Positions 29,151-35,207 of a stretch of 64,000 bases of DNA are shown here, piece after piece. The notes beneath the pieces were generated by a model. That model saw only the letters and a program-made list of their open reading frames with translations, did no database searches and was not told the DNA's origin. Within the stretch, counting starts at the first letter, position 1; each line of letters begins with the position of its first letter. The DNA is from Thermonema rossianum DSM 10300 (GTDB lineage: Bacteria; Bacteroidota; Bacteroidia; Cytophagales; Thermonemataceae), in NCBI RefSeq assembly GCF_000426825.1, contig NZ_AUGC01000001.1:186001-250000 (forward strand), in the 5' to 3' direction. Both the position numbers and the translations under genes were made by a program.

Positions 29151-30583
29151 AGGGCAGGAGCATGCCGTTGCATGCGCTTGGCAAAGGTGAGGGCTTCTTC
29201 ATAACTGTGTCCTTGAAATTCGGCACTTTCCAAATGCAAAAGCGGAAAGCCCAAGAAAGGATGCGGAAGCACCCATATTGCTTGCTTACGCAGTTTTTGA
29301 AGTTGGGCTTCCGGATAAAAAAGCAGGGCTGCATCGCTTACTAAAAGGGGGCGGTATGCAAGCGCTTGATGAAAGTGCACATGCAGGCGAACATCAGGGG
29401 GCAGGTGCAAAGCCGTAGCCAAAGCAAGCACACTGTGTATTTCGCCTTTGCCTTTGGTGTAGCTTACAAGCCGTTGAGCTGCTTCTTTATAAGGTGCATG
29501 GAAGGTAGCATAAGGCAACAAACGTTGTGTGGAAACCCAGCAAGCCCATCCCACGCCCAAGCTCATCAACAGGCTTTGCAGGAGCACACGAGAGGCAAGC
29601 ATGTGTGTCATCAATTGCACCAAAGCCACATAAGCAATGAACACACTCAACAAAATGCCGCGGGGAGCCTTGGGCAAAAAGCTCATCAGCAGCAATAGCC
29701 ATAAGGCAAGAAAGTAAAGTATTGACTCTTGTCTTTGAGAGGGTATGTCTTTCAGGTGTAGCCACCAAAACAAAAGCAGCAGCACCCCTGCCAACGCCAA
29801 TGGCTCATATTGCAAAAGATATTTGAAGTGAAAAAGTATGTCCAAAGAGCTTGCCTGCCGGAGATAATCTTTTCGGAAAAACAATGCCACCCAAGCAGCC
29901 GGATAACGCCACCAGGGAATTCCTTGCAAAGCACCTGTAAACATTAGCAAGAAAGGCACCCACAGCATGTGAACGCCTTGGCGCAGATAGCGTATCAGAT
30001 GACCGTGATGGCGGCCGGTCATAAGCCAGTAACCGTCGTGTAGCCATAAGCCGGTAAGCCAAAAGATGGACTTATACTCGAGCGTCAGGCAAATGCCCCA
30101 CCAAAGCGCTTCGGCAAGCGTAGGCAACAGCCGGTTTGAGCGATTCTTATAAAGCCGCCACCACACAGTAAATCCCAGCAGAAAGAAGGCGGTTGTTTGT
30201 ATGCCCCCATTGTGATAAAACAGCAGTGGGGTAAATTGCAATAAGACAAACAAGCTGAGGCGCTGCCACCAGCTACAAGCTACTTGAAAGCACCAATAAA
30301 CGCTAATGAGCGCATAGAGCCCGGCGGTGAGTACTATCCACGCCTCTATGGATGCAAACAAGCGCCAAACAGCAGCCAAAATCAGCTGATACAGAGGGGC
30401 TAAGTGATGGAACAGCTCGTTAAAGTGCCCTGTTGCCAGCTGCTGGGCATTCCACGCATAGCGATGGGCGTCGTAGTCGGGCAGGTGAAAGCCGGGTGCG
30501 TAGTAAAGGTGTAGTATGACCATGCCGGCTATTGCCAGGCAGCTTATGCCGGCATTCATCAGGCTTGTTTTAAGATTGTTCAT
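29132..30583 (-). CDS. Polytopic membrane protein, glycosyltransferase-39-like layout
   Basis: A 483-residue protein with about eleven hydrophobic segments. An N-terminal loop after TM1 carries acidic residues (HLPDYDAHRYAWNAQQLATG), a position where GT39/PMT-like enzymes keep catalytic Asp. A C-terminal soluble region of ~100 residues follows. A lipid-linked sugar transferase is possible but not shown. The start may be 30583 or 30559; the former overlaps the upstream XRE regulator gene by 14 bp, so the two are probably co-transcribed. Confidence 0.75.
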   Translation of the reverse strand: MNNLKTSLMNAGISCLAIAGMVILHLYYAPGFHLPDYDAHRYAWNAQQLATGHFNELFHHLAPLYQLILAAVWRLFASIEAWIVLTAGLYALISVYWCFQVACSWWQRLSLFVLLQFTPLLFYHNGGIQTTAFFLLGFTVWWRLYKNRSNRLLPTLAEALWWGICLTLEYKSIFWLTGLWLHDGYWLMTGRHHGHLIRYLRQGVHMLWVPFLLMFTGALQGIPWWRYPAAWVALFFRKDYLRQASSLDILFHFKYLLQYEPLALAGVLLLLFWWLHLKDIPSQRQESILYFLALWLLLLMSFLPKAPRGILLSVFIAYVALVQLMTHMLASRVLLQSLLMSLGVGWACWVSTQRLLPYATFHAPYKEAAQRLVSYTKGKGEIHSVLALATALHLPPDVRLHVHFHQALAYRPLLVSDAALLFYPEAQLQKLRKQAIWVLPHPFLGFPLLHLESAEFQGHSYEEALTFAKRMQRHAPALYFLPH

Positions 30584-32051
30584 AATGTTGCACCAATTGT
30601 TGCAAAGCTTTCAAGCGTGCCTGATGACGCTGCTTTTCTTCCAGTACAACCGCAGGTGCCGCACGTTCCTTGCAATCGGGAGCGCTGCAACGTTCGCAGG
30701 TTTCACCCACTTTCCGGCCGCTCAGCTGTGCATTTTCAAGAAAGCGAAGCTTTTGTTTTGTGTTATCGTTAAGCAAAATGCCTATGGACACACTGCTTAA
30801 AGTAGCCGGTGTGGGGTACATGGAGCGCGCCATGGTGAGCACCCAATAGCGGTTGGGGCTGTCTATGTATTCCGATATTTGGGCATCGCAAAGGTAGCCT
30901 TCGTGCCGTTGGTTTTGCATGGACTGCAGCACCTGCAGCGATACCCAGCGCCGGCAGTAATGTTCATGCAAGGCAGTAGCATGAGGGTTGTGCAATTGCC
31001 CCAAGTGCATTTCTTTGGTTAAGCGCACTTTTTGGGAGGCGGTGTCCATACTAAAACGCAAGAAAAACAGCTCTTGCAGCCCCAAAAAATGAGGCAAAAG
31101 ATTGGTGAAACGATGCAGCAATGTTTCGGGTGTTACCACATAGCGCTCGAGCAGTGCCAGCCAAGCCGAGGGTTGCCATCCGGGCATGTTCAGGAGCGAC
31201 TCTATTTGAGGAAGCAAACTTGCCACAGGCAGCAGCAAAGCACCGGCAAAATAAGAGGCTTTGAAGTTGTTTAAAACTTCTTCAAAAGAACTGATGGTAA
31301 CCCATGAAAAAGTATAGGGGCGTGGCGAAAGAGACAAGTGGGCAAAGCCCAGCTCACGTGCCAATACGAAGCGTCTTTGGGCTTCTGACAAACGACGGTT
31401 TATTACCAACAGGCGTTTCTTAGGAATAAAAACAGAACGCAAGGCATACAACGCTTCTTGTTGGAAATTTTCATAAATGACCTGAATCCCCATGTGTTCG
31501 CGCAAAACGCCGGCAAGGGTATGACTGTCCGTCTCTTGCGAGGGCAGGTATTGTTGGCGAAAGTGGGTCGCTGCTTCTTCCAGGTCTTCAAAGTAGTTGT
31601 TGTGCATTTCTTGGTAGGAACGCAGCACAGAAAAGAAAAACTGCTCTACCTGCATGTCATAGTTCCGGCTGATTTCGATCAGGGTGCTTACAAAAGCGCT
31701 GAGCTTGGCCGGTGCATCGGCCAGCAGCTCAATAAGTTTGGCTTTGTCTATGCCCAATACTTCTAAAGGAAGCTCCTGCAACAAATTGGACTGCAGAAGC
31801 TCGGTCAGTGGGGCCAACTTGGGGTGCAGCTGAAGCGACACCAGCCAGTCGTAGCTTACTTCGAGGGCTTCTGCCAGGGCAGCAATTTTATCGGCTTTGG
31901 GGTATTTTTTACCTTTTTCTATTTCGTTCAAATAAGACACCGAAATGCCGGTGCGCTGCGAAAGTGTCTGCAACGACAAGCCTTTTTCCTGGCGCAATTG
32001 TCGAAGCTTAAGACCAAAGGTTAACCGGATGTTTTGTTCGTGCAGTGCCAT
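30570..32051 (-). CDS. XRE-family regulator of the short-chain fatty acyl (RamB/ScfR) type
   Basis: A 493-residue DNA-binding regulator. Residues 10-68 form a Cro/C1 helix-turn-helix (LRQEKGLSLQTLSQRTGISV, SYLNEIEKGKKYP). The middle resembles the IrrE/M78-like domain, but with LARELGFAHL in place of HExxH. The C-terminal part matches the ScfR family and ends in a Cys cluster, CERCSAPDCKERAAP. Relatives such as RamB of Corynebacterium and MccR/PrpC-type regulators control acetate, glyoxylate-shunt and propionate genes. It is divergent from aceB-aceA across an inverted-repeat operator, so it very probably controls that operon. Confidence 0.88.
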   Translation of the reverse strand: MALHEQNIRLTFGLKLRQLRQEKGLSLQTLSQRTGISVSYLNEIEKGKKYPKADKIAALAEALEVSYDWLVSLQLHPKLAPLTELLQSNLLQELPLEVLGIDKAKLIELLADAPAKLSAFVSTLIEISRNYDMQVEQFFFSVLRSYQEMHNNYFEDLEEAATHFRQQYLPSQETDSHTLAGVLREHMGIQVIYENFQQEALYALRSVFIPKKRLLVINRRLSEAQRRFVLARELGFAHLSLSPRPYTFSWVTISSFEEVLNNFKASYFAGALLLPVASLLPQIESLLNMPGWQPSAWLALLERYVVTPETLLHRFTNLLPHFLGLQELFFLRFSMDTASQKVRLTKEMHLGQLHNPHATALHEHYCRRWVSLQVLQSMQNQRHEGYLCDAQISEYIDSPNRYWVLTMARSMYPTPATLSSVSIGILLNDNTKQKLRFLENAQLSGRKVGETCERCSAPDCKERAAPAVVLEEKQRHQARLKALQQLVQHYEQS

Positions 32052-32162
32052 GTCTGTGTTTTATTCGGCTTTTGTGCTGTTTTACCGCTTTTTATTGCGA
32101 AGGCAGCGGCATGCCCGCTTGCCTTTTACATAGGTTTGATTGCACAAAATAAAGAAGTTTTT

Positions 32163-32209
32163 GCGAAAAAATAAATTTAGCGAAAATTCGCTTGTTTTTT
32201 ATTTTTCGC
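32163..32209. promoter_or_regulatory. Nested inverted-repeat operator for the glyoxylate-shunt operon
   Basis: Four GCGAA half-sites are arranged symmetrically: GCGAA at 32163-32167 and 32180-32184, TTCGC at 32187-32191 and 32205-32209. The inner pair forms GCGAA-AA-TTCGC, and the outer arms extend into A/T runs that also nearly mirror each other. The site overlaps the -33 region and spacer of the aceB promoter, as expected for a repressor. The likely ligand protein is the divergent XRE regulator (inferred). Confidence 0.7.
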
Positions 32210-32222
32210 TTTTTTACATTTG
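32192..32222 (+). promoter_or_regulatory. Promoter of aceB-aceA
   Basis: TTG at 32192-32194 and TACATTTG at 32215-32222 are 20 bp apart. The ATG of aceB is at 32262. The promoter is embedded in the inverted-repeat operator. Confidence 0.65.
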
Positions 32223-32261
32223 AATCATACAACACAAACTATCAATTAAAAACATTGAGCC

Positions 32262-33872
32262 ATGTCCACACCTGTTACCACCGAAGGCATTCGTATCACA
32301 GCCCCCTTGCATGAACGCTATGAAGAGATATTGAGTCCGGAAGCCCTGCGCTTTGTGGCTCACCTGCACCGCACCTTCAATGCCAAGCGCAAAGCACTTC
32401 TGGCAGAGCGGGAGGCGCGTTTCCAAGCCATCAGTGAAGGGCAGCCCCTTACTTTTCCAAAAGAAACAGAAGAAATAAGGGGCGGCGATTGGCAGGTAGC
32501 GCCCATACCGCAGGACCTGCAGGACCGCCGGGTAGAGATTACCGGTCCGGTTGACCGCAAAATGATTATCAATGCGCTCAACTCGGGGGCTAAAGTATTC
32601 ATGGCGGATTTTGAAGACGCCAATTCGCCCACGTGGACCAACTGCGTCGAGGGGCAAATCAATCTGTATGATGCCATCCGGCGCCAAATAGACTTTACTG
32701 CCCCCAATGGCAAACAATACAGCCTTAAAGAAAAAGTGGCGGTGTTGAAAGTGCGCCCCCGCGGCTGGCATCTACCCGAAAAGCATGTACTCATTGACGG
32801 CGAGCCTGTCTCGGCTTCCTTATTTGATTTTGGCTTGTATTTCTTCCATAATGCCAAAGAGCTGTTGGCTCGCGGTTCCGGTCCCTATTTCTATCTGCCC
32901 AAATTGGAAAGCTATCAAGAAGCTGCCCTGTGGAACGAGGTTTTTGTGGAGGCACAACAATACCTTGGCATTCCCGTGGGCACCATCAAAGCCACCGTGC
33001 TGATAGAGACCATCACGGCGGCTTTTGAAATGGAAGAAATCATTTATGCCCTGCGCGACCACATGGCAGGCTTGAATGCCGGACGTTGGGACTACATCTT
33101 CAGTGCCATCAAGAAATTCAGAAACCGGCCGGAGGTGCTCTTCCCCGACCGCGCCCAAGTAACCATGACCGTGCCTTTTATGCGCGCCTATGCCATGCGT
33201 GTGGTGCAGGCTTGCCATTTGCATGGTGCCCATGCCATTGGCGGCATGTCGGCTTTTATTCCCAGCCGCAAAGATGAGGAAGTGAATCGCCGCGCCTTCG
33301 ATAAAGTGTATCAAGACAAGGCGTTGGAAGCACATACCGGCTACGATGGCACTTGGGTAGCGCATCCCGACTTGGTGCCTGTGGCATTACAGGCTTTCAA
33401 AGAGGTGCTTGGCGACAGCGTGCATCAAAAAGACGAAAAGCGTTCGGCGGCTTATGTCATTACCCCCAACGACCTGACCAACTTCCATGTAGAAGGTGGA
33501 AAAATTACCGAACAGGGCGTGCGCACCAATATCAATGTGGGGATTCTCTACATTGAGTCCTGGTTGCAAGGCGTGGGGGCGGCTGCACTTTATAATTTAA
33601 TGGAAGATGCGGCGACTGCCGAAATATCGCGCGCCCAGCTGTGGCAATGGTTGCACAATCCGCGTGCCATATGGGACGACGGGCGCCGCCTCACCCCCGA
33701 GCTTTACGGGCGTCTGAAAGCCGAAGAAGTAGAAAAGATAAAACAGCTGCTGGGCGCCGACCGTGTGGCAACAGGCAAGTTGCAACAGGCAATAGAGCTT
33801 TTCGACCGTTTGGTGCTGGAAAAAGACTTTATCGACTTTCTGACCCTGCCGGCTTATGAACTTTTGGACTAA
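32262..33872 (+). CDS. aceB: Malate synthase A
   Basis: Condenses glyoxylate with acetyl-CoA to malate, the second step of the glyoxylate shunt, in the cytoplasm. The 536-residue length is typical of isoform A. Landmarks: [68 protein letters not shown] with the catalytic region, and [18 protein letters not shown]. First gene of an operon with aceA 60 bp downstream, controlled by the divergent operator. Confidence 0.97.
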
Positions 33873-33932: not shown

Positions 33933-35207
33933 ATGAACAAGCAAGAAAGAATCGCTCAATTGGTCAACGAATGGAACACCAATCCGCGTTGGAAAGGCAT
34001 TGAACGCCCTTATACTGCCGAAAAGGTGGTGTCTTTGAGTGGCAGTGTGCAAATAGAGTACACCTTGGCAAAGCGTGGTGCCGAAAAGTTGTGGAAACTG
34101 CTGCACACCGAGCCTTTTGTGGCCGGTTTGGGGGCGCTGACCGGCAACCAGGCGGTGCAGGAAGCACAAGCCGGCTTGAATGCCATTTACGTGAGTGGGT
34201 GGCAGGTGGCTGCCGATGCCAACCTGGCCGGTGAAATGTATCCGGACCAAAGCCTGTATCCTGTCAACAGTGTGCCCATGTTGGTAAAACGCATCAACAA
34301 TGCTTTTATGCGGGCAGACCAACTGCAGACACTTTCGGGCGAAGGTAATATTGATTACTTCTTGCCCATTGTGGCAGATGCAGAAGCAGGCTTTGGTGGC
34401 AACCTGAATGCCTTTGAGCTGATGAAAATGATGATTGAGGCAGGCGCGGCCGGTGTGCATTTCGAAGACCAACTGTCGTCGGCAAAAAAATGCGGTCATT
34501 TGGGCGGCAAAGTGTTGGTGCCTACCCAAGAAGCCATACAAAAGTTGGTGGCGGCACGTTTGGCTGCCGACATCTGCGGGGTGCCCACTGTCTTGATTGC
34601 ACGCACCGATGCCGATGCCGCCAATTTGATTACCAGCGACATTGACCCGCGCGACCGGCCTTTCATTACCGGCAAACGCAGTGCAGAAGGCTTCTATTAT
34701 GTGAAAAACGGAATAGAACAAGCCATTGCCCGCGGTTTGGCATATGCCCCCTATGCCGATTTGTTGTGGATGGAGACTTCGCATCCGGACTTGGGCGAAG
34801 CTCGTGAATTTGCACAAGCCATCCATGAAAAATATCCGGGCAAGCTCTTGGCTTACAACTGCTCGCCTTCGTTCAATTGGGCAGCGAAGTTGTCTGAGTC
34901 GGAGATGGCTACTTTCCGTGAAAAGTTAGCCGAAATGGGCTATAAGTTCCAGTTCATCACTTTGGCAGGTTTCCATGCTTTAAATACGGCCATGTTTGAA
35001 TTGGCAATGGCTTACAAGCAGCACGGCATGTTGGGCTACTCACAGCTGCAGCAACGCGAATTTGCTTTGCAGGAAAAAGGCTTCAAGGCAGTGAAACACC
35101 AAAGCTTTGTGGGAGTACCTTATTTCGATGCCGTTCAAGAAACAGTCACCGGGGGCCTGGCTTCCACACTCGCCTTCAAAGGCTCTACCGAAGAAGAGCA
35201 GTTTTAA
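33933..35207 (+). CDS. aceA: Isocitrate lyase
   Basis: Cleaves isocitrate to glyoxylate and succinate, letting the cell grow on acetate or fatty acids. The 424 residues include the signature KKCGHLGGK at 185-193 with catalytic C187, [24 protein letters not shown] and YNCSPSFNW. Length is normal. It follows aceB by 60 bp without an obvious promoter, so it is co-transcribed, and ends at a terminator at 35257. Confidence 0.97.

Follow-up and report, generated by a model that had tools for sequence, protein, structure and literature searches.

The DNA between aceB and its divergently transcribed neighbour raises two questions: is the cluster of short inverted repeats found there the operator of the neighbouring regulator, and is that regulator reserved for the glyoxylate shunt? 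In the window, by which we mean the whole 64-kb stretch of DNA analysed, aceB encodes malate synthase A (32262..33872, plus strand; TIGR01344, 778.2 bits, cut-off 594.5) and aceA isocitrate lyase (33933..35207, plus strand; NF011645, 755 bits, cut-off 562). The regulator gene (30570..32051, minus strand) encodes a protein of 493 amino acids. The four half-sites of the original prediction are indeed present, GCGAA starting at 32163 and 32180 and TTCGC at 32187 and 32205, and they form the two nested dyads around 32186 that had been claimed, the inner with its centre at 32185.5, the outer with its centre at 32186. AGCGAA-AA-TTCGCT, the 14-bp inverted repeat formed by the inner half-sites, makes up the core operator palindrome AGCGAAAATTCGCT (32179..32192, no strand assigned). 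The outer left half-site (32163..32167, plus strand) lies inside TTTGCGAA, and the outer right one (32205..32209, minus strand) falls within the promoter spacer. The block from 32138 to 32239 (102 bp) has 3 differences from the sister species (G007), and the remaining intergenic DNA is far less similar. A fifth GCGAA, at 32097, was considered as part of the operator and dropped; it is not kept in the sister species and is probably there by chance.

Flush with the core operator stands a TTG (32192..32194, plus strand), and after 20 bases follows TACATTTG (32215..32222, plus strand), of the form TAnnTTTG; the two together we take to be a -33/-7 promoter of Bacteroidota type. The dyads had been said to cover the spacer of this promoter. 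This is correct for the outer right half-site, but the inner dyad only abuts the TTG from upstream. How regular the arrangement is can be judged from 83 operators with an exact GCGAANNTTCGC in other regulator-ace regions and in the window. TTG follows directly after the inner TTCGC in 60 of them, and a TAnnTTTG box (at least 5 of 6 letters) stands at an offset of 34-36 from the operator start in 55, against 5.5% in shuffles; in 19 no such box was found within the range searched. An additional TTCGC occurs 17-19 bp downstream of the inner one in 50 operators (at exactly 18 in 41), and in 25 there is an additional GCGAA on the upstream side, likewise at 17-19 bp. The operators that lack any exact third half-site number 33. 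If the centre of the -7 box is taken as -7, the core dyad would be centred near -40, and the aceB transcript would be expected to begin near 32229. Three species of one distant genus (g116; L273-L275) have a divergent regulator-aceA pair with a promoter resembling TTGACA/TATGGT, which is not of the Bacteroidota type, and the operator there lies at most 2 bases from its usual place relative to the TTGACA box.

The divergent gene had been predicted to encode an XRE protein of the ScfR type, and our profile searches and structural models agree with this. The N-terminal helix-turn-helix (residues 16-70; 31842..32006, minus strand) matches Pfam HTH_3 at 1.3e-15, and the same XRE domain, expected of ScfR/IsaR regulators, is seen in 11 of 11 homologues; the sensor half, IrrE-like and GAF-like, matches Peptidase_M78. 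Homologues of the protein occur both within the order and elsewhere in the phylum. The AlphaFold model (pLDDT 75.9) is predicted to have the sensor fold of MtPrpR (Foldseek E 2.4e-12; Z 23.0-23.2 with 283-286 residues aligned, rmsd 4.5-6.2), and among the structures compared the next best for the sensor half are IrrE/PprI, at Z 12.9-15.0. A C-terminal C-X2-C-X4-C motif (C452, C455, C460; 30672..30698, minus strand), as found in ScfR/IsaR regulators and described for MtPrpR in the available text of PMC6765138, would together with C366 supply the ligands of a [4Fe-4S] cluster. In 177 homologues C366 is invariant and the set C452, C455, C460 is kept in 99%, and the most conserved part of the protein is a run of ten residues from position 43, covering the end of the recognition helix. 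R144, R205 and F228 are kept in at least 175 of the 177 and align with R159, K217 and F240 of MtPrpR (numbers counted by hand from the alignment of the sensor half); the residue aligned to F240 is F in 175 and that aligned to K217 is R in all 177. Position 140, which corresponds to F155 of MtPrpR and to a His of MtRamB, has F in 105 homologues and L in 42, and position 313 (H319 in MtPrpR) is H in 71, Y in 53 and Q in 49.

To call this protein RamB would nevertheless be wrong, since it scores 66.8 bits against the NCBIfam equivalog NF038139, for which the cut-off is 700, and the Pfam ScfRs C-terminal domain is also under its gathering score (17.4 bits, cut-off 24, E 0.0043). Among the homologues 11 of 11 match NF038139 at E up to 1e-5 (best 1.5e-19), and 7 of 11 match ScfRs at E up to 1 (best 0.0014). 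When the whole alignment was used as a profile against the PDB, the matches were to the helix-turn-helix only; the sensor half alone gave a weak match to MtPrpR (E 0.0014). Because both family models stay below their cut-offs, the best reading of sequence and fold is in our opinion a distant Bacteroidota branch that would function like the ScfR/IsaR (PrpR/RamB-type) proteins. An M78 peptidase activity was considered and rejected: no HEXXH was noticed in the translation, and the corresponding stretch reads ARELGFA.

Whether the operator belongs to this regulator was examined at loci from three sources: 57 from the order, 51 from the phylum, counted without G155, and 80 named ones, which were the best 80 of at least 525. 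Pooling the regulator-ace intergenic regions of 12 to 1500 bases gave 95 and, after removal of 4 identical ones, 91 distinct regions. The dyads whose presence upstream of orthologous ace operons had been proposed as a check are found there: an exact GCGAANNTTCGC occurs in 83 of the 91 (the named part being drawn from the best 80 of at least 525), and the reversed pattern in none. By source the figures are 17/18 for the order (window included), 38/39 for the named set (again from the best 80 of at least 525) and 28/34 for the phylum. Of the 8 misses, 5 carry AGCGTACGTTCGCT, which is one change away, L189 has another palindrome, AGCGGAATTTCCGCT; the forms at L063 and L278 are degenerate. AGCGAACGTTCGCT is seen in named Flavobacteriia (Tenacibaculum, L172 and L183; Empedobacter, L187) and in many loci of the phylum set. 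In the named set taken by itself, the best 80 of at least 525, the exact site is in 40 of 41 divergent aceB regions, and these 40 cover 12 genus names and unnamed MAGs. Hymenobacter and Pontibacter contribute 18 of the 40 (of the best 80 of at least 525 loci), hence the named rows are not independent, and because many rows are close relatives the counts overstate independence in general. The site is kept even where the regulator proteins share only 35% identity.

The site also follows the regulator through whole genomes. In a sample of 148 genomes of the order, 54 have a regulator match below 1e-70 (split or cut off in G085 and G111). GCGAAWWTTCGC occurs at least once in all 54 and in 36 of the 94 others (Fisher p 2e-16, kinship ignored). 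Set against sequence length, there are 164 sites in the 288 Mb of the regulator genomes and 66 in the 363 Mb of the others; the reversed controls give 46 and 30. Where the sites fall differs as well: of 67 inspected in regulator genomes 49 are at promoter positions, 16 inside genes and 2 at neither, and of 23 in the other genomes 5 are at promoter positions and 18 inside genes, these being sites from loci at hand and not a random sample of the 164 and the 66. A relaxed pattern with up to 2 mismatches was uninformative in the own genome (96 matches, 111 in the control), and therefore exact sites alone were used further.

In some of these genomes gene order is broken. aceB adjoins the regulator in 18 of the 54 genomes; of the remaining 36, 20 have aceB on another contig or far away, and the exact site stands at most 400 bp upstream of it in 20 of 20. 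Among 75 of the 94 regulator-less genomes, which were searched for aceB, there were 11 matches (9 strong, 2 weak), and none of these 11 has the exact site upstream; of the 9 strong cases 8 belong to one family (f2), and the ninth (G002) is a draft at 81% completeness from the window's own family. Judged by these genomes, the site tracks the presence of the regulator and not gene order, in line with the predicted tie between the aceB-aceA operator and the divergent gene. The 36 genomes in which the regulator is unlinked include 16 that gave no aceB match, and hence the regulator must have other work in these. Of 296 Bacteroidota genomes sampled from 140 genera, 55, in 29 genera, have a regulator match at E up to 1e-40. 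By this survey the regulator-operator pair is phylum-wide, yet most sampled genomes lack the regulator at that threshold.

The exact sites outline a predicted regulon. The own genome has four GCGAAWWTTCGC: one stands upstream of aceB, one 86 bp from pyruvate carboxylase, one 286 bp from a 2-oxoacid dehydrogenase E1-type gene and one 15 bp from a serB-serA fusion. The sister species also has four, before the same genes. The E1 site (L012) is the weakest of the four: it overlaps the end of another open reading frame, though it is kept in the sister species. At the pyruvate carboxylase promoter of both species (L013:1501, L195:1501) one reads GCGAAAATTCGC and then TTCGC 35 bp on, approximately two steps of 17.5 bp, within a block that the two species share without change. 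In both species of the genus, AGCGAATATTCGCT stands 15-27 bp before the fused phosphoserine phosphatase/phosphoglycerate dehydrogenase gene (L014:1501, L222:1587). Among relatives the site is found upstream of aceA at 6 loci and of PEP carboxykinase at 4, and likewise upstream of unlinked aceB, glutamate dehydrogenase, 2-oxoglutarate dehydrogenase E1 and a PhaE-like gene. At the loci of deep-branching regulators it separates the regulator gene from a fatty-acyl-CoA ligase gene that diverges from it (L277, L280, L282, L284, L285, L286; the ligase identified from the translation at all 6 loci and checked by model at 2), and at L272 between such a regulator and aconitase. Within the 700 bp upstream, an exact site occurs at 31 of the 93 regulator loci that lack adjoining ace genes; the other 62 have none.

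Two further observations concern genus g35. In four of its genomes the site is conserved between two divergent genes, one for a formate/nitrite transporter and one for cation efflux (L102, which equals L240, and L106, L238, L239). The operator is also found 165-221 bp upstream of the regulator gene itself (L041, L044, L047-L051), which suggests autoregulation there.

The idea of a dedicated glyoxylate-shunt switch therefore has to be given up. Because the same site precedes other genes of acetate use and gluconeogenesis, such as pyruvate carboxylase and, in relatives, PEP carboxykinase, aconitase and fatty-acyl-CoA ligase, the regulator is, as far as its predicted regulon goes, not dedicated to the shunt.

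Several explanations of the site have to be weighed. A chance palindrome in AT-rich DNA might be considered because 7 of 100 shuffled windows hold at least one GCGAANNTTCGC; the window itself has one, where the shuffles lead one to expect 0.08. None of 100 shuffles has the four-half-site array, and since 83 of 91 linked regions have the exact site and none the reversed pattern, a chance origin can be excluded; co-occurrence with the regulator speaks against it equally. It is very improbable that the repeats act as an RNA hairpin or a terminator-like element rather than as a protein site. The array can fold (-14.9 kcal/mol, z -1.83), but 7 of 200 shuffles fold as well, the half-sites would lie upstream of the transcription start expected from the promoter, and it is the primary sequence that is kept, beyond what pairing alone would need. 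On these grounds we rejected the hairpin. That some unlinked transcription factor binds the site while the neighbouring regulator has other targets is improbable too, if less so. It would agree with aceB not being seen beside the regulator in 36 of 54 genomes of the order, but it leaves unexplained why, in the genomes searched, aceB has the site in 20 of 20 cases with an unlinked regulator and in 0 of 11 without the regulator, and why all 54 regulator genomes have GCGAAWWTTCGC, against 36 of 94 others. Two regulator-less genomes rich in sites (G075 with 12, G070 with 7) were looked at for another binder; 11 of the 15 sites inspected, out of 19, are inside genes, and hence they give no argument for one.

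The reading we prefer, with a probability of about 0.65, is that the site is the operator of the divergent ScfR/IsaR-branch regulator, which would repress aceBA until an acyl-CoA binds. The serious alternative keeps the same regulator and operator and reverses the sign: the acyl-CoA-bound protein at about -40 would recruit RNA polymerase. This is a real possibility, though a clearly less probable one. A core dyad near -40 fits a class II activator, the fixed operator-promoter geometry would also suit contact with the polymerase, MtPrpR is described as an activator (PMC6765138), and RamBPd activates ms-icl, from further upstream and needing both boxes (PMC10370305). Against activation, the third half-site, present in 50 of 83 operators, has an awkward location in the spacer, C. 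glutamicum RamB represses aceA and aceB (PMC4448153), and for MtRamB repression is given as the likelier role (PMC6765138). Near-consensus -33 and -7 elements at fixed spacing, together with the TTGACA box in one genus, argue that the promoter would need no activator; because these elements also carry half-sites, we favour repression over activation.

In the repression mechanism that we propose, the helix-turn-helix dimer would grip AGCGAA-NN-TTCGCT, and the other two such domains of a tetramer would reach the outer half-sites, one step of 17-18 bp on either side. Operator conservation, co-occurrence with the regulator, fixed promoter geometry, the predicted fold and the cysteine set are what we computed; from these we infer the physical binding and the tetramer. 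Protein on the -33 element and in the spacer would block RNA polymerase and thus keep aceBA low and, at the other sites, the anaplerotic and gluconeogenic genes. A short acyl-CoA would then enter the IrrE/GAF cavity, gated by the [4Fe-4S] cluster, alter the oligomer and free the promoter when the cells grow on acetate or fatty acids; ligand and cluster are proposed from the fold and the residues alone. In this way the palindromic switch and its regulator probably signal to Bacteroidota when to feed on acetate or fatty acids.

It seems to us somewhat better than an even bet that this is an undescribed, Bacteroidota-wide acyl-CoA switch, in which one ancient pair sets the change from growth on sugar to growth on acetate or fatty acids via a multi-half-site operator built into the -33/-7 promoter that is the phylum's own. 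If so, its scope would comprise the glyoxylate shunt, anaplerosis, gluconeogenesis and fatty-acid activation. Light-responsive transcription of the glyoxylate shunt has been reported for Dokdonia MED134, in the context of marine Flavobacteriia (as cited in PMC9040609), and the pair could be its missing controller. With an exact site sequence, a fixed geometry and a named protein the question is testable at once, and the regulon can be read from genomes.

Control of the glyoxylate shunt is described for Proteobacteria (IclR and RamB class 2; PMC10370305) and Actinobacteria (RamB; PMC4448153). A literature search judged by titles and abstracts, with subscription papers mostly outside it, gave no recognisable Bacteroidota glyoxylate regulator or GCGAA operator. 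The closest relatives appear to be MtPrpR and MtRamB of Mycobacterium tuberculosis (IsaR clade; PMC6765138), which share the predicted fold (Z 23), the C-X2-C-X4-C motif and targets in acyl-CoA pathways; the MtRamB gene lies upstream of icl1, which we count as a likeness, and their boxes, TTTGC(A/G)AA, have GCGAA in common with the Bacteroidota half-sites. The motif had been expected to differ from the actinobacterial one. This is so in the arrangement of the core, AGCGAANNTTCGCT, but perhaps not wholly in the outer left half-site, which contains TTTGCGAA. MtPrpR is unlike our regulator in other respects: identity in the structural alignment is 21-22%, and its published site consists of two boxes one base apart (PMC6765138), whereas the site described here is an inverted repeat, AGCGAA-NN-TTCGCT, whose outer half-sites stand off by 17-18 bp and which is fused to a promoter of Bacteroidota type.

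RamB of Paracoccus denitrificans (class 2) resembles the present case in being divergent from ms-icl, in controlling the glyoxylate cycle and, as further likenesses, in having two boxes with an 18-bp spacer and a protein that binds CoA esters (PMC10370305). It differs as an activator with a site 82 bp upstream of ms, and its boxes, of the TGACAAAC and TGACAATA type in our own reading of the mutant oligonucleotides in the available text of PMC10370305, contain no GCGAA. Instead of the two direct boxes of class 2 we find an inverted core at the promoter, so that the steps of 17-18 bp are similar to the 18-bp spacer only in distance. RamB of Corynebacterium glutamicum (class 1; PMC4448153) has a different 13-bp site, AA/GAACTTTGCAAA, but as a repressor of aceA, aceB and pta-ack with a wide carbon regulon it is like the regulator proposed here.
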